A stretch of 64,000 bases of DNA from Bolinopsis microptera (Eukaryota > Ctenophora > Tentaculata > Lobata > Bolinopsidae): the NCBI RefSeq assembly GCF_026151205.1, contig NC_087080.1, positions 1,063,812 through 1,127,811 of the forward strand, read 5' to 3'. A program made the translations under genes and the position numbers. The notes beneath the pieces are model-generated. The model did not search any database. It had not been told where the DNA came from and saw only the letters and a list, made by a program, of their open reading frames with translations. Position 1 is the stretch's first letter; the number at the start of each line of letters is the position of its first letter. This document shows, piece by piece, positions 8,246 through 46,800 of the stretch.

Positions 8246-8409
8246 GTAAGATAACTTTAAAGCTTATATTTAATATTATTGTTGTGTTTTAAATCTGAAT
8301 TAACTGTGCTATAGAATGAAAACCGAGGATATTGTTACTCACAATAACTTCTTAATATTAATAAGCTAGTTCAAACGAATTGCTGCTTAACGATTTCCTA
8401 ATTCTTCAG

Positions 8410-8553
8410 AGTCATGTCCAGCTGGAAGCTACAAGAACATTGAGATGAACACATGTAAAGAATGTCCTGATAACACGATCAGTTCAGAAGGAGCAGCCTT
8501 GTGTACAACTTGTGAACTTGGCCAGGAAAGAAACTCAGGGAGAACAAAATGTG
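8410..8553 (+). CDS. Repeat exon type B, copy 1
   Basis: A 144-nt phase-1 exon (acceptor TCTTCAG, donor GTAAGA) reading SCPAGSYKNIEMNTCKEC, then PDNTISSEGAALCTTC and GQERNSGRTKC. It is one and a half cysteine-rich ephrin-receptor-like modules. It alternates with type A exons. Confidence 0.75.
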
Positions 8554-8620
8554 GTAAGAATTGTTAATAAGAATCGAGCTGAGATGATTATATCTATATT
8601 ATACAGATGGGCAACGAGAG

Positions 8621-8628
8621 GATAAGGG
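8621..8628. repeat. 8-bp target-site duplication, left (GATAAGGG)
   Basis: GATAAGGG lies directly outside the left end of the fold-back element and again outside its right end (10417-10424). The uninterrupted paralogous site at 11159-11166 has it once. Confidence 0.9.
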
Positions 8629-10416
8629 GGTTCTTTTGCGATAGTCAAAACGCGACAACTAGCGCTGGATGGCGACAACTAGCGCTATCCAGTGCTAGTT
8701 GTCGCCATCCAGCGCTAGTTGTCGCTATCCAGCGCTGGATAACGCTGGCCAGCGCAAAATATATATGTTCGATAATTGTCGCTATCCAGCGCTAGTTGTC
8801 GCCATCCAGCGCTAGTTGTCGCCATCCATCGCTAGTTGTCGCTATCCAGCGCTAGTTGTCGCTGGCTATGCGACACTGTCGCACGCGATAGTTTGCGATG
8901 GCCAGCGCAACTGGCCATCGCAGAAAACAGTTCGATAACTAGCGCTGGATGGCGACAACTAGCGCTGGATAGCGACAACTAGCGCTGGCCAGCGCTGGCC
9001 ATCGATATCCAGCGCAAAATTTTTGCGCTATTACTCGTCAGCTAGCGCTAACCAGCGCTGGCCAGCGCTAGCCAGCGCTAGCCAGCGCTAACCAGCGCTA
9101 ACCAGCGCTAACCAGCGCTAGCCAGCGCTAACCAGCGCTAGCCAGCGCTAACCAGCGCTAGCCAGCGCTGGCCAGCGCTAGCTGACGAGTAATATCGCAA
9201 CTATATTGCGCTGGCCAGCGCTGGCTGACGAGTAATACTAATATCGAGCGTGCTAAATCACTCTACAGTCGATCTTCGAGATTGTTCTAAAAGGGCCCCC
9301 GATGGTTGTGTCCAACTTCAATCGATGTATTTTCGGACGCTAATTCCGAATCAACCCCCATGGGCCCATGACATAGGGTTAAAATGCTCTCCTGACGAGA
9401 TATTGGCGAAAAACTGTACAAGTATCGATCACGTGATATGACCGTATAAGGAAGTTAGTCTAATTTCTCGTTATTGTTAGGGTTTCAGCATATGTTTTTG
9501 TTAAGGATTGGGTTAGGGTTAGGGTTGGGATCAGATTAAACTTAGAGGGTTGGGGTTTCGAAAAGTCGTTCAGAACCAGCTAGAGTCAGAGAATGGATTA
9601 AAAAAGGCACGTGACAGTCAAGTGTAAAGTGATTAATCATCATCCGAGTAATATCGCAAGTATATGATTTTGACACATTGCGCTGGCTAGCGCTGGTTAC
9701 CGCTGGCTAGCGCTGGCTAACGCTGGCTAGCGCTGGCTAGCGCTGGCTAGCGCTGGCTAGCGCTGGCTAGCGCTGGCTAGCGCTGGCTAGCGCTGGCTAG
9801 CGCTGGCTAGCGCTGGCTAGCGCTGGCTAGCGCTGGCTAGCGCTGGATAGCGACAACTAGCGCTGGCTGGCGCTGGCTAGCGCTGGATAGCGACAACTAG
9901 CGCTGGCTAGCGCTGGCCAGCGCTGGATAGCGACAACTAGCGCTGGCTAGCGCTGGCCAGCGCTAGCTGACGAGTAATAGCGCAAAAATTTTGCGCTGGA
10001 TATCGATGGCCAGCGCTGGCCAGCGCTGGCTATCGCTTAGCGCTGGCCAGCGCTGGCCAGCACTAGTTGTCGCTATCCAGCGCTAGTTGTCGCTATCCAG
10101 CGCTAGTTATCGAACTGTTTTCTGCGATGGCCAGTTGCGCTGGCCATCGCAAACTATCGCGTGCGACAGTGTCGCATAGCCAGCGACAACTAGCGCTGGA
10201 TAGCGACAACTAGCGCTGGATGACGACAACTAGCGCTGGATGGCGACAACTAGCGCTGGATAGCGACAATTATCGAACATATATATTTTGCGCTGGCCAG
10301 CGTTATCCAGCGCTGGATAGCGACAACTAGCGCTGGATGGCGACAACTAGCGCTGGATAGCGCTAGTTGTCGCCATCCAGCGCTAGTTGTCGCGTTTTGA
10401 CTATCGCAAAAGAACC
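8629..10416. mobile_element. Fold-back DNA transposon, 1,788 bp, nonautonomous
   Basis: The ends are exact inverted repeats: GGTTCTTTTGCGATAGTC at 8629 is mirrored by GACTATCGCAAAAGAACC ending at 10416. The inverted arms extend for most of the element and consist of short tandem repeats around AGCGCTGG, some joined by GCGACAACT (for example 9050-9180 and 9680-9960, which are reverse complements in pattern). The centre (about 9240-9660) is non-repetitive and holds a dispersed repeat and a short TTAGGG-like run. No transposase is encoded. Long TIRs built of short tandem repeats are the layout of Foldback-type elements. An 8-bp target duplication is known for hAT- and P-type transposases, but the ends do not let me assign a superfamily. 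Confidence 0.9.
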
Positions 10417-10424
10417 GATAAGGG
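10417..10424. repeat. 8-bp target-site duplication, right (GATAAGGG)
   Basis: Second copy of the target duplication. It continues into TTAAGACGGGATAAGG exactly as at the unoccupied paralogous site (11159 onward). Confidence 0.9.
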
Positions 10425-10684
10425 TTAAGACGGGATAAGGATAAGGCGCCAGATACGACTTAGAATCAAGAAGGCAAATTTGTGGTATGAAAAGACAAGA
10501 ACCGTAAAAGTTTGGGTAGTAATAATTCTATCAAAAACCGTGGTTGTGTGGATATTTAATTTTTCACACATTGTTTTAAATCTAATGTTATTGTAACACA
10601 CCTAAACTGTACTTAAATACTTATATAATAACGATTTTCTTATCTTCCACTACGATTTGCCAGTTTTAACGTTATTAATTCCAG

Positions 10685-10780
10685 AGCCGTGTGGAGAAAG
10701 AAAATATCGGAATGATGCTATGACAAGCTGTGAGACATGTGACGCTGGATTAACACCAAACTCTGATAAAACAGCCTGTG
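10685..10780 (+). CDS. Repeat exon type A, copy 3
   Basis: A 96-nt phase-1 exon between TTCCAG and GTAAGA, PCGERKYRNDAMTSCETC. It resumes the A/B alternation on the far side of the fold-back element. Confidence 0.75.
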
Positions 10781-10947
10781 GTAAGATAACTTTAAAGCTT
10801 ATTATATTTAATATTATTGTTATGTTTTAAATTTGAATTAACTGTGCTATAGAATGAAAACCGAGGACATTGGTACTCACAATAACTTCTTAATAATAAT
10901 AAGGTAGTTCAAACGAATTGCTGCTTAAAGATTTCCTAATTCTTCAG

Positions 10948-11091
10948 AGCCATGTCCAGCTGGAAGCTACAAGAACATTGAGATGAACACATGTAAAGAA
11001 TGTCCTGATAACACGATCAGTTCAGAAGGAGCAGCCTTGTGTACAACTTGTGAACTTGGCCAGGAAAGAAACTCAGGGAGAACAAAATGTG
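10948..11091 (+). CDS. Repeat exon type B, copy 2
   Basis: A 144-nt phase-1 exon, nearly identical to B copy 1 and starting PCPAGSYKNIEMNTC. The intron after it carries the empty insertion site that mirrors the fold-back element's target. Confidence 0.75.
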
Positions 11092-11425
11092 GTAAGAATT
11101 GTTAATAAGAATCGAGCTGAGATGATTATATCTATATTATACAGATGGGCAACGAGAGGATAAGGGTTAAGACGGGATAAGGATAAGGCGCCAGATACGA
11201 CTTAGAATCAAGAAGGCAAATTTGTGGTACAAAAAGACAAGAACCGTAAGAGTCTGGGTGGTAATAAGTCTATCAAAAAACCGTGGTTGTGTGGATATTT
11301 AATTTTTCACCTATTGTTTTAAATCTTATGTAATTGTACATTGCAACACATCTGAAGTGTACTTATATAATAACGATTTTCTTATCTTCCACAACTATTT
11401 GCCATTTGTAACATTAAAATTGTAG

Positions 11426-11521
11426 AGCCGTGTAGAGAAAAAACATATCGGAATGATGCTATGACAAGCTGTGAGATATGTGACGCTGGATTGACACCAA
11501 ACTCTGACAAATCAGCCTGTG
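11426..11521 (+). CDS. Repeat exon type A, copy 4 (divergent)
   Basis: A 96-nt phase-1 exon with acceptor TTGTAG, reading PCREKTYRNDAMTSCEIC. The usual Gly after the second Cys is Arg, so this copy may be drifting, but frame and splice sites are intact. Confidence 0.7.
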
Positions 11522-11682
11522 GTAAGATAACTTTAAAGCTTATAAAATGTAATACTATTGTTATGTTTTAAATTTGAATTAACTGTGCTACAGAATGAAA
11601 ACCGAGGATATTGGTACTCACAATAACTTCTAAATAAGGTAGTTCAAACGAATTGCTGCTTAAAGATTTCCTAATTCTTCAG

Positions 11683-11826
11683 AGTCATGTCCAGCTGGAA
11701 GCTACAAGAACATTGCAATGAACACATGTAAAGAATGTCCTGATAACACGATCAGTTCAGAAGGAGCAGCCTTGTGTACAACTTGTGAACATGGCCAGGA
11801 ACGAAATTTAGGGAGAACAAAATGTG
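11683..11826 (+). CDS. Repeat exon type B, copy 3
   Basis: A 144-nt phase-1 exon, SCPAGSYKNIAMNTCKEC, ending CEHGQERNLGRTKC. Leu-to-His and Ser-to-Leu changes set it apart from copies 1 and 2. Frame and both splice sites are intact. Confidence 0.72.
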
Positions 11827-12156
11827 GTAAGAATTGTTAATAAGAATCGAGCTGAGATGATTATATCTACATAGATGGGCAAAGATAGGATAAGGGTTAA
11901 GACGGGATAAGGATAAGGCGCCATATAGGACTTAGAATCAAGAAGGCAAATTTGTGGTATGAAAAGACAAGAACCGTAAAATTTGGGTGGTAATAATTCT
12001 ATCAAAAAACCGTGGTTGTTTGGATATTTAATTATTCACACATTGTTTTAAATCTAATGTTATTGTAACACATCTAAACTGTACTTAAATACTTATATAA
12101 TAACGATTTTCTTAGCTTCCACTACGATTTGCCAGTTTTAACGTTATTAATGCCAG

Positions 12157-12252
12157 AGCCGTGTGGGGAAGGAAATTATCGGAATGATGCTATGACAAGC
12201 TGTGAGACATGTGAAGCTGGATTGACACCTAACTCTGACAAAACAGCCTGTG
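12157..12252 (+). CDS. Repeat exon type A, copy 5
   Basis: A 96-nt phase-1 exon, PCGEGNYRNDAMTSCETC, acceptor TGCCAG, donor GTAAGA. Frame intact. Confidence 0.72.
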
Positions 12253-12416
12253 GTAAGATAACTTTAAAGCTAATATTTAATATTATTGTTGTGTTTTAAA
12301 TTTAATTAACTGAGCTATAGAATGAAAACCGAGGATATTGGTACTCACAATAACTTCTTAATAATAATAAGGTAGTTCAAAACGAATTGCTGCTTAAAGA
12401 TTTCCTAATTCTTCAG

Positions 12417-12560
12417 AGCCATGTCCAGCTGGAAGCTACAATAACATTGATATGAACACATGTAAAGAATGTCCTGATAACACGATCAGTTCAGAAGGAG
12501 CAGCCTTGTGTACAACTTGTGAACTTGGCCAGGAACGAAACTCAGCGAGAACAACGTGTG
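12417..12560 (+). CDS. Repeat exon type B, copy 4
   Basis: A 144-nt phase-1 exon, PCPAGSYNNIDMNTCKEC, ending NSARTTC with donor GTAAGG. Frame intact. Confidence 0.72.
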
Positions 12561-12846
12561 GTAAGGATTGTTAACAAGATTTTATTATATTAAAATTATT
12601 AATTATTATTAGGGGCTTAGAATCAAGAAGGCAAATTTGTGGTACGAAAAGACAAGAACCGTAAGAGTCTGGGTGGTAATAATTCTATAAAAAAAACCGT
12701 GTTGTGTGGATATTTAATTATTCACCTATTGTTTTAAATCTAATTTAATTGAAATACATCTGAAGTGTACTTATATAATAACGATTTCCTTATCTTCCAC
12801 AACGATTTACCAGTTGTAATAATATATAATAACGTTATAATTCCAG

Positions 12847-12942
12847 AGCCGTGTGGGGAAGGAACATATCGGAATGATGCTATGACAAGCTGTGAGACAT
12901 GTGACGCTGGATGGAAACCAAACACTAACAAAACTGCCTGTG
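12847..12942 (+). CDS. Repeat exon type A, copy 6 (last before the sushi exon)
   Basis: A 96-nt phase-1 exon, PCGEGTYRNDAMTSCETC, continuing GWKPNTNKTAC. The DAGWKP wording differs from the GLTP of the other A copies, so this 3'-most copy may be the older single-copy form. Confidence 0.72.
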
Positions 12943-13196
12943 GTAAGATAACTTTAAATTTTACTTTATTGTTATGTTTTTAATTTAATTTAACTGCGCT
13001 ATAGAATGGTAAATTGTATACAGTATGTAAGACTTGGACCCTAACAAACGATAGTATAGTTATATTTGAGGTTGCTTGAAAGGGTTCGGGTTGGGACAGG
13101 AAAACTAAATCGCGGAACTGCGGAAGAGAACATAAGAAACCGTCAAAATAACCCTTATTAATCAGTTTAACGTGATTTAATATGACATATCGACAG

Positions 13197-13391
13197 TGAG
13201 CTGTACGGGACTGAAGGCTGAGTGGAGAACTGCGATCAGAACAACAACACAGTTCCCAGTAGTCCCAGGAACCGTGGTGGAAGTGAATTGTATTGAATCC
13301 AGAGCTCTCAATAAAGGGAGCAGCGATGTGACCTGCACCTCAGGAACGGAATTTATTTTCGATTTTAATGAACCCGAGTGTATAAATACAG
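13197..13391 (+). CDS. Sushi (CCP) domain exon
   Basis: A 195-nt exon with acceptor CGACAG and donor G/GTATAA, phase 1 on both sides. It reads SCTGLKAEWRTAIRTTTQFP, then VVPGTVVEVNC, DVTCTSGTEFIF and EPEC. Four cysteines and a Gly/Phe pattern in CCP spacing indicate a complement-control-type module, a protein-binding beta fold in secreted and surface proteins. It follows the ephrin-like repeats in phase and probably belongs to the same protein. Confidence 0.72.
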
Positions 13392-13654
13392 GTATAATTG
13401 TAAAAGCGGATATGCTAAATGACCATATCATCACTACAAAATGATAACTAAACTCTTCATACAACCAGGATAGTATCAGCATAACCGACGAAAGGGGGTA
13501 AAATAATGTCTTAAGGGGGAGAGTTGGTTAATGGCTACATTACTATAGAAAACTGATTTATTTAATCTTACAGTTGATGGGCTATGACAAATAGCTCAGA
13601 TGATACTGCAATCTAACTTAGATATCTAAATAAGAAAATGAATGTTGGAGTTTT

Positions 13655-21757: not shown

Positions 21758-22104
21758 TATCCTTATTGTATTAATTAAACTAATTGAATTAATTACACTT
21801 ATTATAATAATTATACCAATTTAAATACTTATTATACTAATTCAAATTCTATTTATACTGTTTACTCACCACAATGATTTTAATATGGATGCATATGGTG
21901 TTACTCAGACTCCAGCTCCAATTAAAACCGTAGTCTTGTACTTGAATATGTCCTGAGTTCATAAAATGTAAGGTGAAACTCACAGGTTTCTCGTGAATAA
22001 TAGCTGATACATCCTTATCGATTATTCTTTGGTTGACTGGTTGGGCTATGAGTTCATTATAGGATATAAAGCAAGTCGAGTTTGTACAGAAAATGTGGAT
22101 TGAC

Positions 22105-22206
22105 ATCCGATGGTGTCCCATAAGGTCCATCAACTGCTATCTTAAAGTTCAGCTCTACTCTCTTTCCCTCTTTGGTAGTTTTGTCTTTAGAATGCATAAT
22201 GACCGG
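22105..22206 (-). pseudogene. NADPH oxidase exon, NADPH-domain entry (KIAVDGPYGTPS)
   Basis: After acceptor CTGTAG the minus strand reads PVIMHSKDKTTKEGKR, VELNF, then KIAVDGPYGTPSD. This matches the 'KIAVDGPFG' turn that links the FAD and NADPH lobes in NOX enzymes. The donor at GAT/GTCAAT is weak, so the low-coordinate end is uncertain. Its start phase does not match the end of the preceding exon, so an exon between is missing or the copy is damaged. The following NADPH-binding exons (GAGIGVTPF-type) are not found further along. Confidence 0.5.
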
Positions 22207-22392
22207 CTACAGCTTTCAGTAGGGAAGCTGTATAAATAATTGGGTTAGGTAATATGTTTAGTTTTCTTCAAACTATGTCTCCAAAACTAAACGAAAGCTT
22301 AAAAAGATAAACTGGAGAGAACAGGACATATCAATTGACACAACAATACAATTTACTACTAACACCAGGTAAACATCTTGGTAATAACTCAC

Positions 22393-22501
22393 TTGTCCGA
22401 TTTCCTGATATGCACGGAGAGATAGTCCTCTTCAGGAGCCGACGTTAGGATGAAGGGATGCCACTCAAATATAGACAACTCACTACTTGCAGGAAGACAT
22501 A
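22393..22501 (-). pseudogene. NADPH oxidase FAD-binding exon, the only complete copy (one base missing)
   Basis: After CTCCCCAG the minus strand starts YVFLQ. It then continues, one base out of register, as [20 protein letters not shown] and [11 protein letters not shown] before donor GTGAGT. HPF(T)LTSAPEED is the FAD-contact motif of NOX/ferric-reductase enzymes. Compared with the repeated units, one base is absent near 22490 (TGCAAGTAG instead of TGCAATGTAG), which breaks the frame and leads to an early stop. This is the last unit of the 77-bp array and the only one that runs on into the rest of the exon. Confidence 0.75.
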
Positions 22502-25500
22502 CTGGGGAGGATGAATTGGGTTAGGGTGAAGGGATGCCACTCAAATATAGACAAATCACTACATTGCAGGAACACGTCCTGGGGAGGGTGTAGTGGGTTA
22601 GGGTGAAGGGATACCACTCAAATATAGACAAATCACTACATTGCAGGAACACGTACTGGGAAAGATGTAGTGGGTTAGGGTGAAGGGATGCCACTCAAAT
22701 ATAGACAAATCACTACATTGCAGGAACACGTACTGGGGAAGATGTAGTGGGTTAGGGTGAAGGGATGCCACTCAAGTATAGACAAATCACTACATTGTAG
22801 GAACACGTACTGGGGAGGGTGTGGTGGGTTAGGGTGAAGGGATGCCACTCAAGTATAGACAAATCACTACATTGTAGGAACACGTACTGGGGAGGGTGTA
22901 GTGGGTTAGGGTGAAGGGATACCACTCAAATATAGACAACTCACTACATTGCAGGAACACGCACTGGGGATGATGTAGTGGGTTAGGGTGAAGGGATGCC
23001 ACTCAAATATAGACAAATCACTACATTGCAGAAAAACGTACTGGGGAGGGTGTAATGGGTTAGGGTGAAGGGATACCACTCAAATATAGACAACTCACTA
23101 CATTGCAAGAACACGTACTGGGGAGGGTGTAGTGGGTTAGGGTGAAGGGATACCACTCAAATATAGACAAATCACTACATTGCAGGAACACGTACTGGGG
23201 AGGGTGTAGTGGGTTAGGGTGAAGGGATACCACTCAAATATAGACAACTCACTACATTACAGGAACACGTACTGGGGAGGGTGTAGTGGGTTAGGGTGAA
23301 GGGATACCACTCAAATATAGACAACTCACTACATTGCAGGAACACGTACTGGGGAGGGTGTAGTGGGTTAGGGTGAAGGGATACCACTCAAATATAGACA
23401 AATCACTACATTGTAGGAACACGTACTGGGGAGGGTGTAGTGGGTTAGGGTGTAGGGATGCCACTCAAATATAGACAAATCACTACATTGCAGGAACACG
23501 TACTGGGGAGGGTGTAGTGGGTTAGGGTGAAGGGATACTACTCAAATATAGACAACTCACTACATTACAGGAATACCTACTGGGGAGGATGTAGTGGGTT
23601 AGGGTGAAGGGATACCACTCAAATATAGACAACTCACTACATTGCAGGAATACGTACTGGGGAGGATGTAGTGGGTTAGGGTGAAGGGATACCACTCAAA
23701 TATAGACAACTCACTACATTGCAGGAACACGTACTGGGGAGGGTGTAGTGGGTTAGGGTGAAGGGATACCACTCAAATATAGACAACTCACTACATTACA
23801 GGAATACGTACTGGGGAGGATGTAGTGGGTTAGGGTGAAGTGATACCACTCAAATATAGACAACTCACTACATTGCAGGAATACGTACTGGGGAGGGTGT
23901 AATGGGTTAGGGTGAAGGGATAACACTCAAATATAGACAACTCATTACATTGCAGGAACACGTACTGGGGAGGGTGTAGTGGGTTGGGGTGAAGGGATAC
24001 CACTCAAATATAGACAACTCACTACATTGCAGGAACACGTACTGGGGAGGGTGTAGTGGGTTAGGGTGAAGGGATGCCACTCAAATATAGACAACTCACT
24101 ACATTGCAGGAACACGTACTGGGGAGGATGTAGTGGGTTAGGGTGAAGGGATACCACTCAAATATAGACAACTCACTACATTGCAGGAACACGTACTGGG
24201 GAGGCTAAAGTGGGTTAGGTTGAAGGGATACCACTCAAATATAGACAACTCACTACATTGCAGGAACACGTACTGGGGAGGATATAGTGGGTTAGGGTGA
24301 AGGGATACCACTCAAATATAGACAACTCACTACATTGCAGGAACACGTACTGGGGAGTGGGGAGGGTGTAGTGGGTTGGGGTGAAGGGATGCCACTCAAA
24401 TATAGACAACTCACTACATTGCAGGAACACGTACTGGGGAGGATATAGTGGGTTAGGGTGAAGGGATACCACTCAAATATAGACAACTCACTACATTGCA
24501 GGAACACGTACTGGGGAGGGTGTAGTGGGTTAGGGTGAAGGGATGCCACTCAAATATAGACAACTCACTACATTGCAGGAACACGTACTGGGGAGGGTGT
24601 AGTGGGTTAGGGTGAAGGGATACCACTAAAATATAGACAACTCACTACATTGCAGGAACACGTACTGGGGAGGGTGTAGTGGGTTAGGGTTAGGGGATAC
24701 CACTCAAATATAGACAACTCACTACATTGCAGGAACACGTACTGGGGAGGGTGGAGTGGGTTAGGGTGAAGGGATGCCACTCAAATATAGACAACTCACT
24801 ACATTGCAGGAACACGTACTGGGGAGGGTGTAGTGGGTTAGCGTGAAGGGATACCACTCAAATATAGACAACTCGCTACATTGCAGGAACACATACTGGG
24901 GAGGGTGTAGTGGGTAAGGGTGAAGGGATACCACTCAAATATAGACAACTCACTACATTGCAGGAATACGTACTGGGGAGGGTGTAGTGGGTTAGGGTGA
25001 AGGGATACCACTCAAATATAGACAACTCACTACATTGCAGGAATACGTACTGGGGAGGGTGTAGTGGGTTAGGGTGAAGGGATACCACTCAAATATAGAC
25101 AACTCACTACATTGCAGGAATAAGTACTGGGGAGGGTGTAGTGGGTTAGGGTGAAGGGATACCACTCAAATATAGACAACTCACTACATTGCAGGAACAC
25201 GTACTGGGGAGGGTGTAGTGGGTTAGGGTTAAGGGATACCACTCAAATATAGACAACTCACTACATTGCAGGAACACGTACTGGGGAGGGTGTAGTGGGT
25301 TAGGGTGAAGGGATGCCACTCAAATATAGACAACTCACTACATTGCAGGAACACGAACTGGGGAGGGTGTAGTGGGTTAGGGTGAAGGGATACCACTCAA
25401 ATATAGACAACTCACTACATTGCAGGAACACGTACTTGGGAGGGTGTAGTGGGTTAGGGTGAAGGGATGCCACTCAAATATAGACAACTCACTTCATTGC

Positions 25501-28500
25501 AGGAACACGTACTGGGGAGGGTGTAGTGGGTTAGACTGAAAGGGATGCCACTCAAATATAGACAACTCACTACATTGCAGGAACACGTACTGGGGAGGGT
25601 GTAGTGGGTTAGGGTGAAGGGATACCACTCAAATATAGACAACTCACTACATTGCAGGAACACGTAATGGGGAGGGTGTAGTGGGTTAGGGTGAAGGGAT
25701 ACCACTCAAATATAGACAACTCACTACATTGCAGGAGCACGTACTGGGGAGGGTGTAGTGGGTTAGGGTGAAGGGATACCACTCAAATATAGACAACTCA
25801 CTACATTGCAGGAACACGTACTGGGGAGGGTGTAGTGGGTTAGGGTGAAGGGATACCATTCAAATATAGACAACTCACTACATTGCAGGAACACATACTG
25901 GGGAGGATGTAGTGGGTTAGGGTGAAGGGATACCACTCAAATATAGACAACTCACTACATTGCAGGAACACTTACTGGGGAGGATGAAGTGGGTTAGGGT
26001 GAAGGGATACCACTTAAATATAGACAACTCACTACATTGCAGGAACACGTACTGGGGAGGGTGTAGTGGGTTAGGGTGAAGGGATACCACTCAAATATAG
26101 ACAACTCACTACATTGCAGGAACACGTACTGGGGAGGGTGTAGTGGGTTAGGGTGACGGAATACCACTCAAATATAGACAACTCACTACATTGCAGGAAC
26201 ACGTACTGGGGAGGATGTAGTGGGTTAGGGTGAAGGGATGCCACTCAAATATAGACAACTCACTACATTGCAGGAACACGTACTGGGGAGGGTGTAGTGG
26301 GTAAGGGTGAAGGGATAACACTCAAATATAGACAACTCACTACATTGCAGGAACACGTACTGGGGAGGGTGTAGTGGGTTAGGGTGAAGGGATACCACTC
26401 AAATATAGACAACTCACTACATTGCAGGAACACGTACTGGGGAGGGTGTAGTGGGTTAGGGTGAAGGGATACCACTCAAATATAGACAACTCACTACATT
26501 GCAGGAACACGTACTGGGGAGGGTGTAGTGGGTAAGGGTGAAGGGATACCACTCAAATATAGACAACTCACTACATTGCAGGAACATGACTGGGGAGGGT
26601 GTAGTGGGTTAGGGTGAAGGGATGTCACTCAAATATAGACAACTCACTACATTGCAAGAACACGTACTGGGGAGGATGTAATGGGTTAGGGTGAAGGGAT
26701 GTCACTCAAATATAGACAACTCACTACATTGCAGGAACACGTACTGGGGAGGATGTAGTGGGTTAGGGTGAAGGGATGCCACTCAAATATAGACAACTCA
26801 CTACATTGCAGGAACACGTACTGGGGAGGGTGTAGTGGGTTAGGGTGAAGGGATACCACTCAAATATAGACAACTCACTACATTGCAAGAACACGTACTG
26901 GGGAGGATGTAGTGGGTTAGGGTGAAGGGATGCCACTCAAATATAGACAACTCACTACATTGCAGGAACACGTACTGGGGAGGATGTAGTGGGTTAGGGT
27001 GAAGGGATGCCACTCAAATATAGACAACTCACTACATTGCAAGAACACGTACTGGGGAGGATGTAGTGGGTTAGGGTGAAGGGATACCACTCAAATATAG
27101 ACAACTCACTACATTGCAAGAACACGTACTGGGGAGGGTGGAGTGGGTTAGGGTGAAGGGATACCACTCAAATATAGACAACTCACTACATTGCAGGAAC
27201 ACGTACTGGGGAGGGTGTAGTGGGTTAGGGTGAAGGGATGCCACTCAAATATAGACAACTCACTACATTGCAAGAACACGTACTGGGGAGGTTGTAGTGG
27301 GTTAGGGTGAAGGGATACCACTCAAATAAAGACAACTCACTACATTGCAGGAACACGTACTGGGGAGGATGTAGTGGGTTAGGGTGAAGGGATACCACTC
27401 AAATATAGACAACTCACTACATTGCAGGAACACGTACTGGGGAGGGTGTAGAGGGTTAGGGTGAAGGGATACCACTCAAATATAGACAACTCACTACATT
27501 GCAGGAACACGTACTGGGGAGGGTGTAGTGGGTTAGGGTGAAGGGATACCACTCAAATATAGACAACTCACTACATTGCAGGAACACGTACTGGGGAGGT
27601 TGTAGTGGGTTAGGGTGAAGGGATACCACTCAAATATAGACAAATCACTACATTGCAGGAACACGTACAGGGGAGGTTGTAGTGGGTTAGGGTGAAGGGA
27701 TCCACTCAAATATAGACAACTCACTACATTGCCGGAACACGTACTGGGGAGGGTGTAGTGGGTTAGGGTGAAGGGATACCACTCAAATATAGACAACTCA
27801 CTACATTGCAGGAACACGTACTGGGGAGGATATAGTGGGTTAGGGTGAAGGGATACCACTCAAATATAGACAACTCACTACATTGCAGGAACACGTTCTG
27901 GGGAGGGTGTAGTGGGTTAGGGTGAAGGGATGCCACTCAAATATAGACAACTCACTACATTGCAGGAACACGTACTGGGGAGGGTGTAGTGGGTTAGGCT
28001 GAAGGGATACCACTCAAATTTAGACAACTCACTACATTGCAGGAACACGTACTGCCACTGGGGAGGGTGTAGTGGGGTAGGGTGAAGGGATACCACTCAA
28101 ATATAGACAACTCACTACATTGCAGGAACACGTTCTGGGGAGGGTGTAGTGGGTAAGGGTGAAGGGATGCCACTCAAGTATAGACAAATCACTACATTGT
28201 AGGAACACGTACTGGGGAGGGTGTAGTGTGTTAGGGTGAAGGGATGCCACTCAAATATAGACAACTCACTACATTGCAGGAACACGTACTGGGGTGTAGT
28301 GGGTTAGGGTGAAGGGATACCACTCAAATATAGACAACTCACTACATTGCCAGACCACGTACTGGGGAGGTTGTAGTGGGTTAGGGTGAAGGGATACCAC
28401 TCAAATATAGACAACTCACTACATTGCAGGAACACGTACTGGGGAGGATGTAGTGGGTTAGGGTGAAGGGATACCACTCAAATATAGACAACTCACTACA

Positions 28501-30259
28501 TTGCAGGAACACGTACTGGGGAGGGTGTAGAGGGTTAGGGTGAAGGGATACCACTCAAATATAGACAACTCACTACATTGCAGGAACACGTACTGGGGAG
28601 GGTGTAGTGGGTTAGGGTGAAGGGATACCACTCAAATATAGACAACTCACTACATTGCAGGAACACGTACTGGGGAGGGTGTAGTGGGTTAGGGTGAAGG
28701 GATACCACTCAAATATAGACAACTCACTACATTGCAGGAACACGTACTGGGGAGGATGTAGTGGGTTAGGGTGAAGGGATACCACTCAAATATAGACAAA
28801 TCACTACATTGCAGGAACACGTACTGGGGAGGGTGTAGTGGGTTAGGGTGAAGGGATGCCACTCAAATATAGACAACTCACTACATTGCAGGAACACGTA
28901 CTGGGGAGGGTGTAGTGGGTTAGGGTGAAGGGATGCCACTCAAATGTAGACAACTCACTACATTGCAGGAACACGTACTGGGGAGGGTGTAGTGGGTTAG
29001 GGTGAAGGGATGCCACTCAAATATAGACAACTCACTACATTGCAGGAACACTTACTGGGGAGGATGTAGTGGGTTATGGTGAAGGAATACCACTCAAATA
29101 TAGACAACTCACTACATTGCAGGAACACGTACTGGGGAGGATGTAGTGGGTTAGGGTGAAGGGATACCAATCAAATATAGACAACTCACTACATTGCAGG
29201 AACACGTACTGGGAAGGATGTAGTGGGTTAGGGTGAAGGGATACCACTCAAATATAGACAACTCACTACATTGCAGGAACACGTACTGGGGAGGGTGTAG
29301 TGGGTTAGGGTGAAGGGATACCACTCAAATATAGACAACTCACTACATTGCAGGAACACGTACTGGGGTGTAGTGGGTTAGGGTGAAGGGATGCCACTCA
29401 AATATAGACAACTCACTACATTGCAGGAACACGTACTGGGGAGGGTGGAGTGGGTTAGGGTGAAGGGATACCACTCAAATATAGACAACTCACTACATTG
29501 CAGGAACACGTACTGGGGAGGATGTAGTGGGTTAGGGTGAAGGGATGCCACTCAAATATAGACAACTCGCTACATTGCAGGAACACGTACTGGGGAGGTT
29601 GTATTGGGTTAGGGTGAAGGGATACCACTCAAATATAGACAACTCACTACATTGCCGGAACACGTACTGGTGAGGGTGTAGTGGGTTAGGGTGAAGGGAT
29701 GCCACTCAAATATAGACAACTCACTACATTGCAGGAACACGTACTGGGGAGGATGTAGTGAGTTAGGGTGAAGGGATGCCACTCAAATATAGACAACTCA
29801 CTACATTGCAGGAACACGTACCGGGGAGGGTGTAGTGGGTTAGGGTGAAGGGATACCACTCAAATATAGACAACTCACTACATTGCAGGAACACTTACTG
29901 GGGAGGGTGTAGTGGGTTAGGGTGAAGGGATACCACTCAAATATAGACAAATCACTACATTGCAGGAACACGTACTGGGGAGGGTGTAGTGGGGTAGGGT
30001 GAAGGGATACCACTCAAATATAGACAACTCACTACATTGCAGGAACACGTACTGGGGAGGATGTAGTGGGTTAGGGTGAAGGGATACCACTCAAATATAG
30101 ACAACTCACTACATTGCAGGAACACGTACTGGGGAGGTTGTAGTGGGTTAGGGTGAAGGGATACCACTCAAATATAGACAACTCACTACTTTGCAGGAAC
30201 ACGTACTGACTACTGGGGAGGGTGTAGTGGGTTAGGGTGAAGGGATACCACTCAAATAT
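22445..30259. repeat. 77-bp minisatellite derived from the NADPH oxidase intron/exon boundary (main block, ~101 copies)
   Basis: Each unit on the minus strand is 18 nt of intron end (CCACTACACCCTCCCCAG) plus the first 59 nt of the FAD exon ([20 protein letters not shown]). The 18 + 59 = 77 count is exact. Units are 90-99% alike. Recurrent variants (GATACC/GATGCC, GACAACTC/GACAAATC, GGAGGATG/GGAGGGTG) are mixed along the array. Since 77 is not a multiple of 3, each added unit shifts the frame, and the shifted frames soon meet TAA or TAG. Every unit keeps an AG acceptor and pyrimidine tract. Confidence 0.95.
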
Positions 30260-30340
30260 TACCTGAGGACCCCAGGCTATTATGTTCATTAACATAAATA
30301 AAGATTTGGCGGAATGACAGGCTGAGCGCGGCCCAGTAAC
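30260..30340. mobile_element. ~81-bp miniature element with 8-bp target duplication
   Basis: It begins TACCTGAGGACCCCAGGC and ends GCGGCCCAGTAAC, and is flanked on both sides by TCAAATAT, a word that occurs once per minisatellite unit. A second copy in opposite orientation lies at 51050-51123. The termini are only loosely inverted (TACCTG/CCAGTA). Far too short to code for anything. Confidence 0.8.
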
Positions 30341-30349
30341 TCAAATATA

Positions 30350-31177
30350 CCTTATCGGACCTTATTTGGACGGACATTACATGAACGGACATAATTATGA
30401 ACGGACATTAATATGAACGCTCGAAGGCATTCAAAACCATCAAAAATCCGAATTTTTTTCAATTTTTTGACGTTTTTTTAATTTCAGCAGTTTTTTAAGC
30501 AGTCATTAAGCAGTAAAAATGTTAAAATATGTGTACATGATCAGTGTCTAATATCACATATCATCTTCATCAAATGAGTTTTCGTGCATGAAATAGTCCA
30601 TGCTTAAACAAGCATCAGTGATTTCTAGCTTTATGGAAACCTTTTTTATCAAACTACCCGGTCCTGCATTTCAGCGTTAACTTTTACAAGCCATTCGGCG
30701 TGAAGTGGTTTTATCTTAGACAACTTTAGGTTAACCTTAACATCACGTGGAGCTTTCCTAGCACTGTTTCATTACCTCCCCTCAGTAATATGAACTATAA
30801 CAACGTCGGACAATGTCCTTGGCAACACGATTTACCGTAATATCTAGAGGCTGGAACAAGTTTGTTATGTTGGCGGGAACTAGCTCATGAACTATGTTGT
30901 TGAGTGCCATAATTTCGTTGACTTTTTAGAGTAGAGTTTTCTGTGCCTCCGGCAGACCAAGGAGAACCTTTCCGTCGTTAACTTACGGCACAATAAAGTT
31001 CTCATAGTTGTCATATTCTGGACAAAAAGTTCGAAATGGAAAAATTTTTGAAAAAATTTCAACGGACTTTAACTTGGACGGACATTAATTGAACGGACTT
31101 TATTAGAACGGACATTAAGATGAACGCTAGGGCCTCCAGCGTTCAAGTAATGTCCGTCCAAATAAGGTCCGATAAGG
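30350..31177. mobile_element. 828-bp TIR element with TA target duplication, inserted in the minisatellite
   Basis: CCTTATCGGACCTTATTTGG at 30350 is mirrored by CCAAATAAGGTCCGATAAGG ending at 31177. The TIR continues for about 35 bp, and sub-terminal GAACGGACATTA words repeat near both ends. TA stands on each side, and the interrupted word (AAATA-TA-GACAAC) is intact in neighbouring units. No transposase frame. TA duplication and length fit a nonautonomous Tc1/mariner-type element. Confidence 0.85.
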
Positions 31178-31178
31178 T

Positions 31179-31772
31179 AGACAACTCACTACATTGCAGG
31201 AACACGTATTGGGGAGAATGTAGTGGGTTAGGGTGAAGGGATACCACTCTAATATAGACAAATCACTACATTGCAGGAACACGTACTGGGGAGGGTGTAG
31301 TGGGTTAGGGTGAAGGGATACCACTCAAATATAGACAAATCACTACATTGCAGGAACACGTATTGGGGAGAATGTAGTGGGTTAGGGTGAAGGGATACCA
31401 CTCAAATATAGACAAATCACTACATTGCAGGAACACGTACTGGGGAGGGTGTAGTGGGTTAGGGTGAAGGGATACCACTCAAATATAGACAAATCACTAC
31501 ATTGCAGGAACACGTACTGCCACTGGGGAGGGTGTAGTGGGTTAGGGTGAAGGGATACCACTCAAATATAGACAAATCACTACATTGCAGGAACACGTAC
31601 TGGGGAGGGTGTAGTGGGGTAGGGTGAAGGGATGCCACTCAAATATAGACAACTCACTACATTGCAGGAACACGTACTGGGGAGGATGTAGTGGGTTAGG
31701 GTGAAGGGATGCCACTCAAATATAGACAAATCACTACATTGCAGGAACACGTACTGGGGAGGATGTAGTGGG
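31179..31772. repeat. 77-bp minisatellite, second block (~8 copies)
   Basis: Continuation of the NADPH oxidase-derived array on the far side of the two inserted elements. It ends at GGG/TTTTTATTTTTATTTT, which on the minus strand is the native intron running into its CCCACTAC..CAG acceptor. Confidence 0.93.
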
Positions 31773-31980
31773 TTTTTATTTTTATTTTTATCGAGAGGAC
31801 TGATATTGAGATGACTTGGCAGTAGTTTAGAAACTGTTAAAATAGCTTTAATAACTTGGATTGAGTATTAATCATTTATTCTGTATGAACTATAACCATA
31901 TTAACATGAATTAACTATAGATGTGACTAGTAGATTCTTCACCACTATCACTACGTGTCATGTTGTGCTGTATTTCTCAC

Positions 31981-32145
31981 CTGGCCAGCATGCTGTTTCC
32001 AGCCCTTCTTCCTCATCCTTAGTTCCAGACAAGGTCCAGGATGCTCAATAACCTTGTACAAAACCGCCGGGTTGAACCGCCTTGACCACCGTACAATCCG
32101 GTCAATAGTGTAGATTATCAGGGGCACTCCGACCCACCAATACGA
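31981..32145 (-). pseudogene. NADPH oxidase exon: last transmembrane helix and start of the FAD domain
   Basis: A 165-nt exon (acceptor CTTCAG, donor CAG/GTGAGA, phase 0 both ends) reads SYWWVGVPLIIYTIDRIVRW, then AVLYKVIEHPGPCLELRMRK and KGWKQHAGQ. It matches the NOX pattern of a transmembrane helix, an Arg-rich turn, 'V..HP...LEL.M.KKGF....GQ'. The next exon would begin YVFLQC, which is what each 77-bp unit encodes. NOX enzymes pass electrons from NADPH via FAD and haem to oxygen. The exon itself is undamaged, but its neighbours carry lesions, so I label the locus a probable pseudogene. Confidence 0.85.
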
Positions 32146-32353
32146 CTGAAGATTTAATGTAAGAGAAGAATAAAGTTTTCTGCGGAGAAAATATACAACA
32201 GTAATCTCATTACAGCATCTTTAAAATACTTAAATGCGACAAGGACCAATAATTGGTGAAATGAGGAACAATCGAAAAATTATCAGACACACCAGTCATT
32301 GAGTCACGACGAGACTAATATTTCCAAAAGAGCCAGACCACAGTTAAACAAAC

Positions 32354-32506
32354 CTTGGAGTAGTTGACATAGCCAGGACCCTTAAAAGTTAGATCTTTAC
32401 AGATGGTGGTCCCCGGAAGACACTATTTTGTCGTAAGTGTCACAGACACCACTTCTTGTCCTCCCCAATCATACACTCTGGTCCTTGCAGTGATTTTACC
32501 ATCTGA
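32354..32506 (-). pseudogene. Probable NADPH oxidase exon (extracellular loop) with an in-frame TAG
   Basis: 153 nt between acceptor TTCAG and donor AAG/GTTTGT, phase 0 at both ends, so it can join the next exon as LTFKGPGYVNYSK-SYWWVG. Codon 28 of 51 is TAG. The rest is open (SDGKITARTRVYDWGGQ and CLPGTTICKDLTF). The loop before the last helix is poorly conserved in NOX proteins, so the assignment rests on position and phase. The nonsense codon adds to the case for a dead gene. Confidence 0.45.
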
Positions 32507-32529
32507 CTGAATATAAAAATCAATAAAAT

Positions 32530-33681: not shown

Positions 33682-34863
33682 ATGAAAGCCTCGCTGGTTT
33701 TCATTTGCGTGGTAACAGGATGTGTTGCTGCAGCAGCCGCAGAAGATCAAGAACTGACGTTGAGAAAGAGAGTTAAGGGGATAAAACGCCTGGTGAAGAC
33801 TCTGGCTAACCACACTTTCCCTACTTGTGATCTTATCCTCTTTGCTGAGTTGGCAGATTACTAAACCGCTGGAGAGAAATGTAGGACGTTCAACCTAGCA
33901 GCCACAAGCTGAGAAGAGGGTAATCTAGCGACCGTCAACGATAAGGAAAAGAACGACTACCTGAGGATGCTTTTGAACATTGCACTTCCAAAAGATGATC
34001 AAGACCTTTACAAATATTCAGCCTCGCGCAGGGTATGGACCGGGTTGAGAAAGACAAAGAACACTAATGCGAAACACATTAAAAGGATTAAGAATAGGGC
34101 TCCATACAAGCCTGAGGATTGGTCCTGGCACGATGATACTCACCCCGAAGATTGGCACAACTGGCACAGAGGACAGCCGGATCAGAGACCACTGAAGAAG
34201 GGCGAGAAAAGTGACGTGGGAGGAGAGGAGCTCGGGGCGACCTGTGAAGAAAAAACGTGTCGGAAGAATCAAATGAGAATGAGCAACGATGGAAGATGGG
34301 ACGATGCATATGCATTCGAGGAACACCCGTACGCCTGTGATTGCCGTGGCAGATTCATCTGCTCTGCGGAGAAGATGAAGTGGGATGACGCCAAGAAAGC
34401 ATGCGAAGCAGCAGGCTTGACATTAGCTTCTGTAAAATCTCCGGAAGAAACAGAAGAACTACTGCAAGCGCTTGAATACTTTTTGGGTGCTTCCAAATTC
34501 GCACCTTGCAAAGGTATATTCGGACACAAAACATTAAAAGGAGGAAAGGTAAACCCGGCACTGCTGGTAACTAAAGAACAGGAAGACAATTGTTCCGTTG
34601 TAACAGGAAGATGGGACCCTCAACATTGGGCTTGGATAGGTGGAAATGATAAATGGGGTGAGGGATCGGAGGGTCACTTTAAATGGTTAGACGGCAGTGA
34701 TGTTGAGTATGAAGGCTTCCCGTGGATTACAAAAGCAGGGGGTGATAACGGAGAAAGTAAAGGAGGAGGCCAGAACAGCTTGAGCATTTCCAAATGGGGC
34801 GAATTTGACGACGAGTTTGGCAAAGTAAAGCGACCATTTGTATGCGAGTGTCCCCGTGGATAA
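33682..34863 (+). pseudogene. Intronless double C-type-lectin-domain protein with two in-frame stops
   Basis: An ATG at 33682 gives a clear signal peptide (MKASLVFICVVTGCVAAAAA). The same frame runs to TAA at 34861 through two C-type lectin domains, broken only by TAA at 33862 and TGA at 33910. Domain 1 has CRTFNLAATS, EEGNLATVND, VWTGLRK and a closing YACDC. Domain 2 has FICSAEKMKWDDAKKACEAA, WAWIGGND, FKWLDGSD and a closing RPFVCEC. Such domains usually bind sugars in secreted defence or adhesion proteins. Each stop could come from one base change (Lys-type AAA to TAA; the usual Trp TGG to TGA). The absence of introns suggests a retrocopy. Readthrough or an allele-specific null are alternatives. 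Confidence 0.8.
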
Positions 34864-36190: not shown

Positions 36191-36325
36191 AAGTAAAATT
36201 TCCTATTCGATCAATCATAGCAATATAAAATTAATACTCGAGTTAATTCGTTCTCTGGAAAGAAAAATAATTTAAAATAATGAAGTGGAGTCATAGGGAT
36301 AGAAATTAGAAAATTACGGATCAGA

Positions 36326-37905
36326 TGTAGAGGGATCAGAAAGAGAGAGATTGGAAAGAGAGGGATCAGAAGGAGAGGAATCGGAAGGAGAGGGATCAGA
36401 AGGAGAGGGATCGGAAGGAGAGGGATCAGAAAGAGAGGGATCAGAAGGAGAGGAATCGGAAGGAGAGGGATCACAAGGAGAGGGCTAGGAAGGAGAGGGA
36501 TCAGAAGGAGAGGGATCACAAGGAGAGGGATCGGAGGGAGAGGGATTAGAAGGAGAGGGATCGGAGGGAGAGGAATCAGAAGGAGAGGGATCAGAAGGAG
36601 AGGGATCGGAGGGAGAGGAATCAGAAGGTGAGGGATCAGATGGAGAGGGTCAGAAAGAGAGGGATCAGAAGGAGAAGGATTGGAAGGAGAGGGATCAGAA
36701 GGAGAGGGATCAGAAGGAGAGGGATCAGAAGGAGAGGGATCAGAAGGAGAGGGATTGGAGGGAGAGGAATCAGAAGGAGAGGGATCAGATGGAGAGGGGT
36801 CAGAAAGAGAGGGATCAGAAGGAGAAGGATCAGATGGAGAGGGATCAGAAGGAGAGAGATCAGATGGAGAGGGAGTACAGAGAGAGGGATCAGAGGGAGA
36901 GAGATCAGAAGGAGATGGGTCAGAAAGAGATGAATCAGAAGGAGATGAGTCAGAAGGAGAGGGATCAGAAAGAGAGGGATCAGAGGGAGAGGAATCGGAA
37001 GGAGAGGGATCAGAAAGAGAGGGATCAGAGGGAGAGGAGTCAGAAGGAGAGGGATCAGAAAGAGAGGCATCAGAAGGAAAGAGATCAGAAGGAGAAGGAT
37101 CGGAAGGAGAGGGATGATCGGAAGGAGAGAAGTCAGAAGGAGAGGGGTAAGAAAGAGAGGCATCAGAAGGAAAGAGATCAGAAGGAGAAGGATCGGAAGG
37201 AGAGGGATGATCGGAAGGAGAGAAGTCAGAAGGAGAAAGATCAGAAAGAGATGAATCAGAAGGAGAGGGATCAGAAGGACAGGGATCAGAAGGAGAGGGA
37301 TCAGAAGGAGAGGGATCAGAAGGAGAGGGATCAGAAGGAGAGGGATCAGAAGGAGAGGGATAAGAAAGAGAGGGATCAGAAGGAGAGAGATCAGATGGAG
37401 AGGGCTCGGAAGGAGAGGGATCAGAAAGAGAGGGATCGGAAGGAGAGAAATCAGAAGAGGTAAACCAATCAATGGTTATGGTAGAAAGTTCGGCAAATTT
37501 ATAAAATATTCTAGCTGGGTTAAATTTAACCATATATTTTTTCAATCGGGCGCTATATATAAAAGGATTAATAACTGAGTTTATTGGAAGTATGACAATA
37601 GAAAAGAGGCTGTACTGCGCTGAAGCGTCAATAACACCGAAGTAGTGAAGACCACTCACAATCACGAATGGTATCCAGCAAACAAAGTTTGTACCGATGA
37701 TAGCAGCTATCTTTCTTTGTAGTTTTTGGTTCCTCCTTCGGACCATTTTTCGTCGTTGGGGTCTTTCCCTTTGTCAGAATGCCGGAATCTTTAATTGTTT
37801 TGGCGTTTATAAAGATATACGAAATAGCAACTATGGCAAAACAAAGAATGTTAATTGATAAAATTGTCAAACTGAACCGTCTCTGAGGATCATTCTGGTG
37901 AACAA
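36326..37905 (-). pseudogene. Truncated second copy of the LDL-receptor-repeat GPCR (TM5 end to C-tail)
   Basis: The minus strand reads KYFVHQNDPQRRFSLTILSI and ILCFAIVAISYIFI. After a frame break near 37740 (CGTCGTTGG where the other copy has GACGTTGG) it reads VRRRNQKLQRKIAAIIGTNF, CWIPF and NSVINPFIYS. This is over 90% like the 43.9-kb receptor. The tail is a long run of SPSDP-type pentapeptides that changes frame inside the array; the original frame ends SLSDPSTSDP and stop near 36320. The similarity stops at about 37905, after which Penelope sequence begins. With its 5' receptor part gone, it cannot make a receptor. Confidence 0.85.
36330..37455. repeat. 15-bp coding minisatellite in the truncated receptor tail (~75 units)
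   Basis: The plus strand repeats AGGAGAGGGATCAGA with single-base variants; on the minus strand this codes for (S-P-S-D-P)n. Other frames give long artefactual open frames on both strands (Glu/Arg-rich on plus, Leu/Ile/Pro-rich on minus). Confidence 0.9.
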
Positions 37906-43871: not shown

Positions 43872-46800
43872 CTACGGATCAGATTTAAAGTGATCGGAAG
43901 GATAGGGATCAGAAAGAGAGGGATTAAAAGGAAAGAGATCGGAAAGAGAGGAATCGGAAGAAGAAAGATCGGATGAAGAAAGATCGGAAGGAGAAAGATC
44001 GGAAGGAGAAAGATCGGAAGGAGAGGGATTGGAAGGAGAGAGATCGGAAGGATAGATATCAGAAGGAGAAAGATCGGAAGGAGACGGATCCGAGGGAGAG
44101 GGATCGGTAGGAGAGGGATCAGAAGAAGAGAGATCGGAAGGAGAGATATCGGAAAGAGAGGGATCGGAAGAAGAAGGATCAGAAGAAGAGGGATCAGAGG
44201 GAGAAGGATCGGAAGTAGAAAGATCGGAAGTAGAAAGATCGGAAGGAGAAAGATCGGAGGGAGATGGATCAGAAGGAGAGGGATCGGAAGGAGAGGGATC
44301 GGAAGGAGAGGGATCGGAAGAAGAGGGATCGGTAGGAGAGGGATCAGAAGAAGAGGGATCGGAAGGAGAGATATCAGAAAGAGAGGGATCGGAAGTAGAA
44401 AGATCGGAAGGAGAAAGATCGGAGGGAGATGGATCAGAAGGAGAGAGATCAGAAGGAGAGGGATCAGAAGGAGAGGGATCGGAAGGAGAAGGATCCGAGG
44501 GAGAGGGATCGGAAGGAGAGGGTTCAGAAGGAGGGGTAGAAGGATCCAATGGATCAAGGGGAATGCAATCGATCGGATTGGGAAGAATTTCGGCAACTTT
44601 ATAAAACATTCTAGCTGGGTTAAATATAACCATACATTTGTTTAAAAAGGTGCTGTATATAAAAGGATTGATAACTGAGTTTATTGGAAGTATGACAATA
44701 GAAAAGAGGCTGTACTGCGCTGAAGCGTCAATAACACCGAAGTAGTGAAGACCACTCACAATCACGAATGGTATCCAGCAAACAAAGTTTGTACCGATGA
44801 TAGCAGCTATCTTTCTTTGTAATTTTTGGTTCCTCCTTCGGACCATTTTGGACGTTGGGGTCTTTCCCTTTGTCAGAATGCCGGAATCTTTAATTGTTTT
44901 GGCGTTTATAAAGATATACGAAATAGCAACTATGGCAAAACAAAGAATGTTAACGGATAAAATTGTCAAACTGAACCGTCTCTGAGGATCGTTCTGGTGA
45001 ACAAAATATTTGAAGAGACACACTCCATCGTTACCAAAAAAATCAACCCTTCCTACTTTTCCATCTAAATTGCCATAATCATTTGAAAACATAGTCATCA
45101 TAAGACTCAAGATAAGTGACCACTTCAATTGCTGCCTCTTTGCCCTGCCAAAGTATCGCTGTATCACATCAAAATGCCTATCCTTTCCAGCTTGTTCGAT
45201 AAATAGCTTCATGTCAGTATCGTAGGTCAATCCATTTACAAATAAGTCTTCGAAATATGGAAGCAAGGGTGCAAGAGCAATTAATGAGGTCACAATAATT
45301 ACAGGAAATATCATCACCACAAATTGAACGAGAATTTTTGTAAAGCTCATTCTCAATCCAGAATTTGATCCCACCATACTGTTTTGAATTCCAAAAACTC
45401 GACAGACACTGAGAATGGCTAACGATACAACAGAGATCTGACTTCCAATCGTGCTGATTACCCCCAAAGCTGAGCAATATTTACTGCTCAGCCATTTCAA
45501 CTGCCTTTCGCAGAAGTTTGCACCATACGTATAGTCAACAATTGCTAATGAAAATAGATACTGTCCGGTTAGGAAGTCTCCAATACTAATAACCATAATC
45601 ATTATCTTGTTTGCCAGCATTGTGCGCGATTTGCATTTCTTCAAATCCGCCCCATTTTCAATCATAACAACGATATTAAAAATGGTCGCAAGGAAACCAA
45701 TTCCAAAAGCGGCAATTTTTTGAGCTAATCCATTTATTACATTCTTACCACACTCTTCATTACACTCATCCGACCAATCTTCGCAGTTTGCGGTGCCGTC
45801 ACATTTTTGGGTGATTGGAATAAACGCACCACCACATTCGAAATGGTTTCCGCAGTTCAGTTCATCTGAACTATCCCCGCAATTGTCAACTAGGTCACAG
45901 ACTTTAGAATACTCCACACACAGATTGTTGGCGCAAGGAAAGTAATCATTGGTGTATTTTCCTGATTTTTTACTGACGAAAGTGAGGTGCTTGTTATTGA
46001 CCAATGTGTAGACTCTGTCCTTAAACTGGTCTTTGCAATCATTGTACTTAATTGAACTTGTGATAGGGCATTTAGTTGAATGCAGACACTTCCCAAGACA
46101 GCTCAAATAGAGGTAAACTTCTCCATACAGATGGTTACAATTATACAGCAAATCTGGATATATTACTTGCATCCTGCTGTAGACTCCATAGATAGTTTCA
46201 TTAAAAACGTTAAACTCATCAGATATGCAAGAACTTTGCTGGTGCTCAACGTCGTGCAGGCCTTTGACGCAATAAGAAATAATTTTAAAAGTCTCAGCCG
46301 TATTAACCGTTGTAGAGACTCTTGCTTTGCCTCTACTCATTTTGCATATGTTATTTTCATTTCCGCATGTCTCGAGGCCATCACATAGATCAGGCAGCTC
46401 AATGAATCCAACACTTTCGTATGAGTGGCATAAAAACACGTCTTGACAGTCTGGATTCTTTTTTGTGGCAAAACGTGTTGTTGCATGGAAACCACATGTA
46501 GGCCAATAAGTAGAATTTTCATCGAGGCCACCAAGACAGTCTTCAAGACCGTCTCCAAGCCATGATGAAGGAATACTTAAAGCCTCTTCGTGTCTGTAGT
46601 TCCTATAGCATCTTTCCTCAGTCATTGAGAGACACTCTGACATGTCTTCGTCACTGCCATCCCCGCAGTCCTCCACTCCATCACATAGCTGATGTTTGTG
46701 GCAGGTACACGTGATGCCCATATAAGGAGGTACAGTCAACTGACGCCTCGATACACTGCAGGTCCATCTTGTTCTCGCAGAGTCCTCTCCTCACTTCGCC

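Follow-up and report, generated by a model that had tools for sequence, protein, structure and literature searches.

The window, a stretch of 64,000 nt from the ctenophore Bolinopsis microptera, contains 110 tandem copies of a 77-bp unit that runs across an intron/exon boundary. We consider it very probable that this array is a minisatellite of the 'mirage' type, formed by amplification of one NOX2-type 3' splice junction within a dead, truncated gene copy.

A tandem array of a 3' splice junction

Read on the minus strand, the unit consists of 18 nt of intron end (CCACTACACCCTCCCCAG) followed by 59 nt from the start of an FAD exon of NOX2 type (TACGTGTTCCTGCAATGTAGTGAGTTGTCTATATTTGAGTGG(T/C)ATCCCTTCACCCTAAC). 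TRF reports 101.4 copies of 77 bp with 95% matches at window positions 22444-30259 and a second block of 7.7 copies at 31178-31774. Units were counted by wrap-around alignment with a cut-off of at least 75% identity to the consensus; 125 pieces were parsed and 15 of them (partial units, insertion or flanking sequence) were dropped. The 110 that were kept bear out the original prediction of a tandem array of about 109 copies of an intron/exon junction. Their mean identity to the consensus is 97.0% and 98 of them are exactly 77 nt long; 110 copies at 97% identity cannot be due to chance. Unit numbers, here and below, are lengths in the assembly.

Every unit had been predicted to be an acceptor followed by codons, and this is true of most units but not of all. 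The AG is kept in 104 of the 110 units and the CAG in 103, and the 57-nt exon part is open in 90. There is a CTAAC, a sequence resembling a branch point, about 19 nt 5' of the next CAG across the tandem junction in 99 of the 110 units, and since CTAAC and AG are kept in most units, each unit resembles a complete acceptor. Two features of a mirage are present, namely a repeat unit that spans the boundary between intron and exon and a splice signal in many of the units. The commonest unit peptide is not the ...EWHPFTL that had been put forward but ...FEWYPFTL (Y in 75/110 units, H in 33/110, 2 undecided), and the H of HPFTLT is the state found at single-unit loci. A search of the window against Rfam at the gathering threshold gave no match.

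The array is interrupted by an insertion with inverted ends (Table 1). Beside it there is a smaller insert flanked by TATTTGAG, recognized by eye in the gap between the TRF blocks. We take both to be MITE-like transposable elements.

Table 1. Positions of the features described in the text (window positions unless a contig is given)
Feature	Position	Strand	Evidence and remarks
77-bp splice-junction minisatellite, 110 units	22443..31774	-	TRF and unit decomposition; break at ~30260-31177
Insertion within the array	30260..31177	.	Element recognized by eye: TA target duplication, inverted ends of ~30 bp (CCTTATCGGACC...)
Upstream NOX2-type exon, broken	32351..32514	-	tblastn: three pieces, different frames
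NOX2-type exon NLQSYWW...KQHAGQ, open, phase 0 end before the array	31981..32154	-	tblastn
Exon start (last unit) and remainder of the exon	22394..22501	-	1-bp deletion in the unit; donor position by eye
NOX2-type exon (..KIAVDGPYGTPSD), frame disturbance near its start	22105..22225	-	tblastn
NADPH-site exon, DIFKYKTTVLIGAGV and VTPYASILKSLW on either side of an in-frame TGA at 21907-21905	21869..21952	-	tblastn
DUOX-like 5' splice junction array, at least 225 copies, most of the intron	C12:2266840-~2274710		23-nt core search
NOX5-like array, 53-61-bp repeat of exon end and donor, 8 donors	C9:~4602142-4602607		

The NOX2-type gene copy in the window

The exons of a related locus on contig C3, when joined, match the cytochrome b-245 heavy chain (NOX2) over 160 of 164 amino acids (residues 5-164) with an E value of 2.3e-49, and the alignment runs through the motif GQY.F..C...., which had been named as the FAD-contact region of NOX enzymes. 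In a Pfam search that covered ten chosen sequences, the C3 exons match FAD_binding_8 with an E value of 8.4e-25. The NOX identity proposed for the exons is upheld by both matches. The window copy differs from NOX2 in being a truncated relic that lacks the transmembrane exon tested.

The C3 locus, near 11.447 Mb, has a transmembrane exon, the exon that precedes the array in the window, one single unit and the following exons, all open where read, with a long insertion in one intron. A permissive Pfam search added pieces of the NADPH-binding domain at C3:11445236, 11427502 and 11417291, in order and on the same strand; all three fall below the Pfam cut-off, with E values of 0.24 and 0.97 for the outer 3' exons. 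C3:11.417-11.448 Mb is likely to be the parent of the window copy. It is also likely, though not proven, that this parent is a complete NOX2-type gene, the reservation being due to the weak matches of the outer 3' exons. Further NAD_binding_6 matches, above the Pfam cut-off, lie on C2, C6 and C12 (6.03 Mb).

The exon before the array in the window ends in phase 0 with ..KQHAGQ, as predicted, and by tblastn it is 96.6% identical to the C3 exon. The last unit was expected to continue into the remainder of the exon. It does so in the DNA but not in frame, because the unit that is joined to the real exon start carries a 1-bp deletion (gcaaGTAGTG vs gcaaTGTAGTG). Read from its own acceptor, this unit runs into a stop after 18 codons, and near the donor of the same exon about 8 bp are missing by eye in comparison with C3:19187k. 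The FAD segment with HPFTLT that a functional NOX2 needs is present in the DNA but is not open in the frame-shifted last unit. Neither an open NADPH-binding exon (that of the window contains a TGA) nor the transmembrane/haem exons, of which one was tested, were found in the window. The best tblastn match to this transmembrane exon in the window has an E value of 0.034. Genome-wide there is a single strong match, at C3:11448128-11448283 (E 1.4e-27), and the other match, on C12, has 27% identity and an E value of 0.1.

As a splice test, the upstream exon was linked to all 104 AG acceptors one by one, and reading continued without further splicing. None of the 104 joins (0/104) reaches SAPEED in an open frame and 72 of them stop after 44 codons. 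The lack of a transmembrane exon, the broken upstream exon, the loss of 1 bp in the last unit and the TGA together indicate that the window copy is a dead, 5'-truncated relic. This relic may nonetheless be transcribed and its RNA spliced, perhaps into another gene.

Copies of the segment and history of the array

The genome searched consists of 232 contigs with 264.65 Mb in total. Fifteen places in it match the exon and intron that follow directly on the array: the window, three places on C3 (parent included), two on C5, one on C8, five on C4 and, as fragments, three near 3.31 Mb on C9. Parts of the C3 NOX2 gene are found at 11 other loci (window included) in addition to the C9 fragments. For the sequence that precedes the array there are 26 matches, some of them fragments on C11 and C13. 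Among the matches listed genome-wide, the places of the unit also carry the rest of the exon, which supports the proposed tie between the unit and NOX.

Among the loci that were decomposed, there is a single unit at the C3 parent, at C3 19.187 Mb, at C3 19.609 Mb and at C9 3.316 Mb. The arrays of the two C5 loci have 3 and 7 full units, and C8 and one of the five C4 copies have 17 full-length pieces each, made up of about 15 clean units and 2 pieces of insertion sequence. The unit number across paralogous loci in this one assembly is thus 1, 3, 7, about 15 or 110. C8 and the five C4 copies all have a distance of about 1.4 kb between their flank matches.

An unrooted maximum likelihood tree was made from 693 columns after the array at 8 loci, with a single C4 copy out of five and excluding the C9 3.316 Mb fragment, whose coverage is too small. 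In this tree the five array carriers are split from three single-unit loci with a UFBoot value of 96. The C4 copy has a long branch (0.163), and the order among the window, C5 and C8/C4 is open to doubt, with a support of 36. The split in the tree, together with the single junction as the ordinary state of the gene, suggests that the array probably arose once, then spread with its segment and grew to 110 units in the window. Independent expansions at each locus receive no support from the 8-locus tree. The tyrosine variant is absent from the clean C8 and C5 units, and two units of the C4 copy encode Y. Since the variant is not private to the window, it gives weak support for local growth, which rests mainly on the unit numbers.

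A different reading of the dispersal is that the segment is a mobile element which carries a NOX piece and the minisatellite, the array being part of its structure. There are long collinear matches on C3, C4, C5, C8 and C9, and two copies on C3, separated by 422 kb, share 99.8% identity over 1381 bp, as would suit such an element. However, the C3 parent has the same exons and introns, the extents of the matches differ between copies and ordinary segmental duplication accounts for the data equally well. Transposase evidence was looked at through Pfam on ten chosen sequences. On balance we regard a mobile element as unlikely, and prefer amplification of a junction within a dead gene copy.

The five C4 copies of the segment, at C4:155-235 kb, are evenly spaced, about 19.5 kb apart. 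The C4 copy analysed differs from C8 by 13.5% and has many 1-bp gaps, whereas C8 is hardly changed; the divergence of C4 reflects either fast decay or an unpolished stretch of the assembly. The NOX relic adjoins a C-type lectin reading frame (PF00059, E 1.6e-10) at window 33913-34860 (+), a region with a further match close to the C3 19.61 Mb copy. The dispersed segment with the NOX relic also contains a cysteine-rich exon (PEPCGEGTYRNDAMTSCETCDAG...) at window 7400-13450 (+), which is repeated in tandem every ~740 bp.

Origin of the array and variation among its units

The edges of the unit at single-copy loci are two AAC triplets 77 bp from each other, one in the intron and one closing the 59 nt of exon. 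The first duplication of 77 bp may have taken place through this 3-bp repeat, and later slippage or unequal exchange would have extended the array, with strong growth at the window locus. As a by-product of the duplication, the exon-end CCCTAAC would have become a branch-point-like sequence about 19 nt before the next CAG. A transcript crossing the array would then meet about 100 equivalent acceptors, each with CTAAC, a C-rich tract and CAG. No acceptor restores the NOX frame, so the window array would not be expected to give any NOX protein.

The AG columns of the units show no extra conservation (0.982 and 0.964 vs 0.969 elsewhere). Among the units without gaps in the exon part, the distinct variants of this part comprise 11 synonymous changes, 38 non-synonymous changes and 7 stops, where neutrality predicts fractions of 0.225, 0.713 and 0.062, respectively. 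The window units vary as expected without selection, and selection on the array is not seen.

These figures bear on the suggestion that the array is a selected splice-acceptor trap, in which about 100 acceptors catch the upstream exons of minus-strand read-through transcripts and give chimaeric, mostly non-coding RNAs. A trap would agree with the CTAAC placed about 19 nt before the CAG in 99/110 units and with the AG in 104/110, but the acceptor columns are no better conserved than others and the stop and non-synonymous variants are near their neutral fractions. The acceptor signals are preserved because amplification was recent, and we hold a selected trap to be very doubtful.

That the window holds a working NOX gene, in which some 109 competing acceptors lie before the real exon and acceptor choice regulates the protein, as first proposed, is scarcely credible: acceptor signals in 104/110 units and an open pre-array exon speak for it, but the transmembrane exon has no match in the window, the upstream exon is broken, there is an in-frame TGA, the real exon start has a 1-bp deletion and the AG columns lack added conservation, and in this assembly the exon damage and the 0/104 productive acceptors refute it. 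Competing sites in a train are a better fit for the DUOX-like and NOX5-like genes.

Splice-junction arrays in other NOX-family genes

The DUOX-like and NOX5-like loci were chosen through Pfam matches and not through repeats. The best solved relative of the DUOX-like gene, on C12, is Dual oxidase 1 (E 6.3e-44). This gene has a 27-bp tandem repeat made up of the last nucleotides of the exon ...DYSNYE and the donor GTATAG. With 3 mismatches or fewer, a 23-nt core of the repeat has 225 genomic occurrences and its reversed control has none; the core matches listed are all on C12, at 2266840-2271265. The array, which was read outside 2271265-2273351, starts at the exon end and runs to 140 bp before the next exon (Table 1). 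Joining the first donor to the next exon gives an open frame, and all of the downstream donors tested (51/51) give a stop.

The NOX5-like gene, on C9, matches NADPH oxidase 5 (E 3e-37), and its repeat contains the exon end ...EHAVLIAAGI and the donor G|GTTAGTA, with 8 occurrences. The first donor reads ...AAGIGVTPYASILQ; the other donors give stops in 7/7 cases. Junction arrays are thus present in 2 of the 4 other NOX-family loci analysed here (the C3 parent, the NOX5-like gene, the DUOX-like gene and the C9 3.50 Mb locus), and TRF found no array at the exon edges available of the C3 parent and the C9 3.50 Mb locus. We take the process to act on 5' splice sites too, in two genes whose available exons make them look alive, and the phenomenon thus recurs in genes of that kind.

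In these live-looking genes only the exon-proximal site is productive among the near-identical ones tested, so that the cell would have to choose by position. We propose, tentatively, that the genome recurrently amplifies splice junctions into long minisatellites, 3' as well as 5' and in live genes too, with donor-bearing repeats in an ABC-F-like gene of the window as another instance, and that the exon-proximal site is chosen by its position. If this is true, the arrays would be natural, titrated tests of how the spliceosome chooses among many identical sites. Correct splicing of the DUOX-like and NOX5-like transcripts would mean that the choice is made by position (exon definition, nearness to the exon) and not by local sequence.

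Comparison with known junction repeats

In the portion of the amphioxus report drawn on here, mirages are minisatellite-like tandem duplications of intron/exon boundaries in Adh3 and in the globin genes BflGb6 and BflGb9 (PMC3087553). BflGb6 has 3 and 6 units of 150-160 bp in two haplotypes; its authors judged its splicing to be regular from RT-PCR and proposed mirages as a source of new introns (PMC3087553). The window array is a member of this known kind, a large and dead one. As in BflGb6, the 3' intron end and the 5' part of the exon are repeated, with splice signals in many units, but the window array, which lies in a dead copy, has 110 units and a unit length of 77 bp, against 3 and 6 units of 150-160 bp.

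The human CBS gene has a 31-bp VNTR of 16-21 copies at the boundary between exon 13 and intron 13 (PMC1395315, PMC2630376). From the parts of these papers that give its position, we read c.1444_1467+7 as 24 nt of exon and 7 nt of intron, which makes it a repeated 5' splice site. It differs from the window array in repeating a 5' and not a 3' junction and in having far fewer copies, and is nearer to the DUOX-like array. Related subjects in the literature, as far as the excerpts of these papers go, are the gain of introns through tandem duplication (PMC2891723, PMC4974935) and, in Caenorhabditis elegans, minisatellites close to multiple splice choices (PMC4039745).

In the parts of the open-licence literature covered, we found no description of junction repeats on this scale (110 and at least 225 copies) or of their recurrence in one genome. 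Copy numbers exceed the 3 and 6 units of the amphioxus globin gene by a factor of about 20 to 75. Several genes of this one genome have junction repeats, and their competing sites are nearly identical. The genome may provide more cases that bear on mirages as a source of introns, as raised in the cited portion of PMC3087553. Additionally, in the section of PMC9524095 that concerns it, the ctenophore Mnemiopsis is reported to have NOX5 only, whereas the genome searched here has NOX2-, NOX5- and DUOX-like genes.

Other repeats in the window

The window also contains an ABC-F-like gene, two joined exon pieces of which match ABCF1 (E 1.7e-19), with tandem repeats at several exon edges. An ABC-F-like exon that ends ..AEAINEFTG has the donor GAG|GTAAAA, and immediately 3' of this donor, at window 55279-55507 (-), a 76-bp sequence is present in three identical copies, all of which have a donor AAG|GTAAGT. 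In the 126-bp repeat at window 63561-63994 (-), of which there are 3.5 copies up to the window end, part of an ABC-F-like exon (GKSTLLNLLLGKL..VNHRL) is accompanied by a donor-like CTG|GTTAGT and a run of G. A further repeat, at window 54573-54850 (-), comprises the C-terminal end of the gene together with runs of an 8-bp unit.

Finally, there are 15-bp coding repeats (SPSDP...) at window 36318-37457 and 43892-44533. The latter form the C-terminal end of a GPCR that has LDL-receptor class A repeats and lies at 43.9-46.8 kb; the former are the C-terminal end of a similar reading frame at 36.2-37.8 kb.
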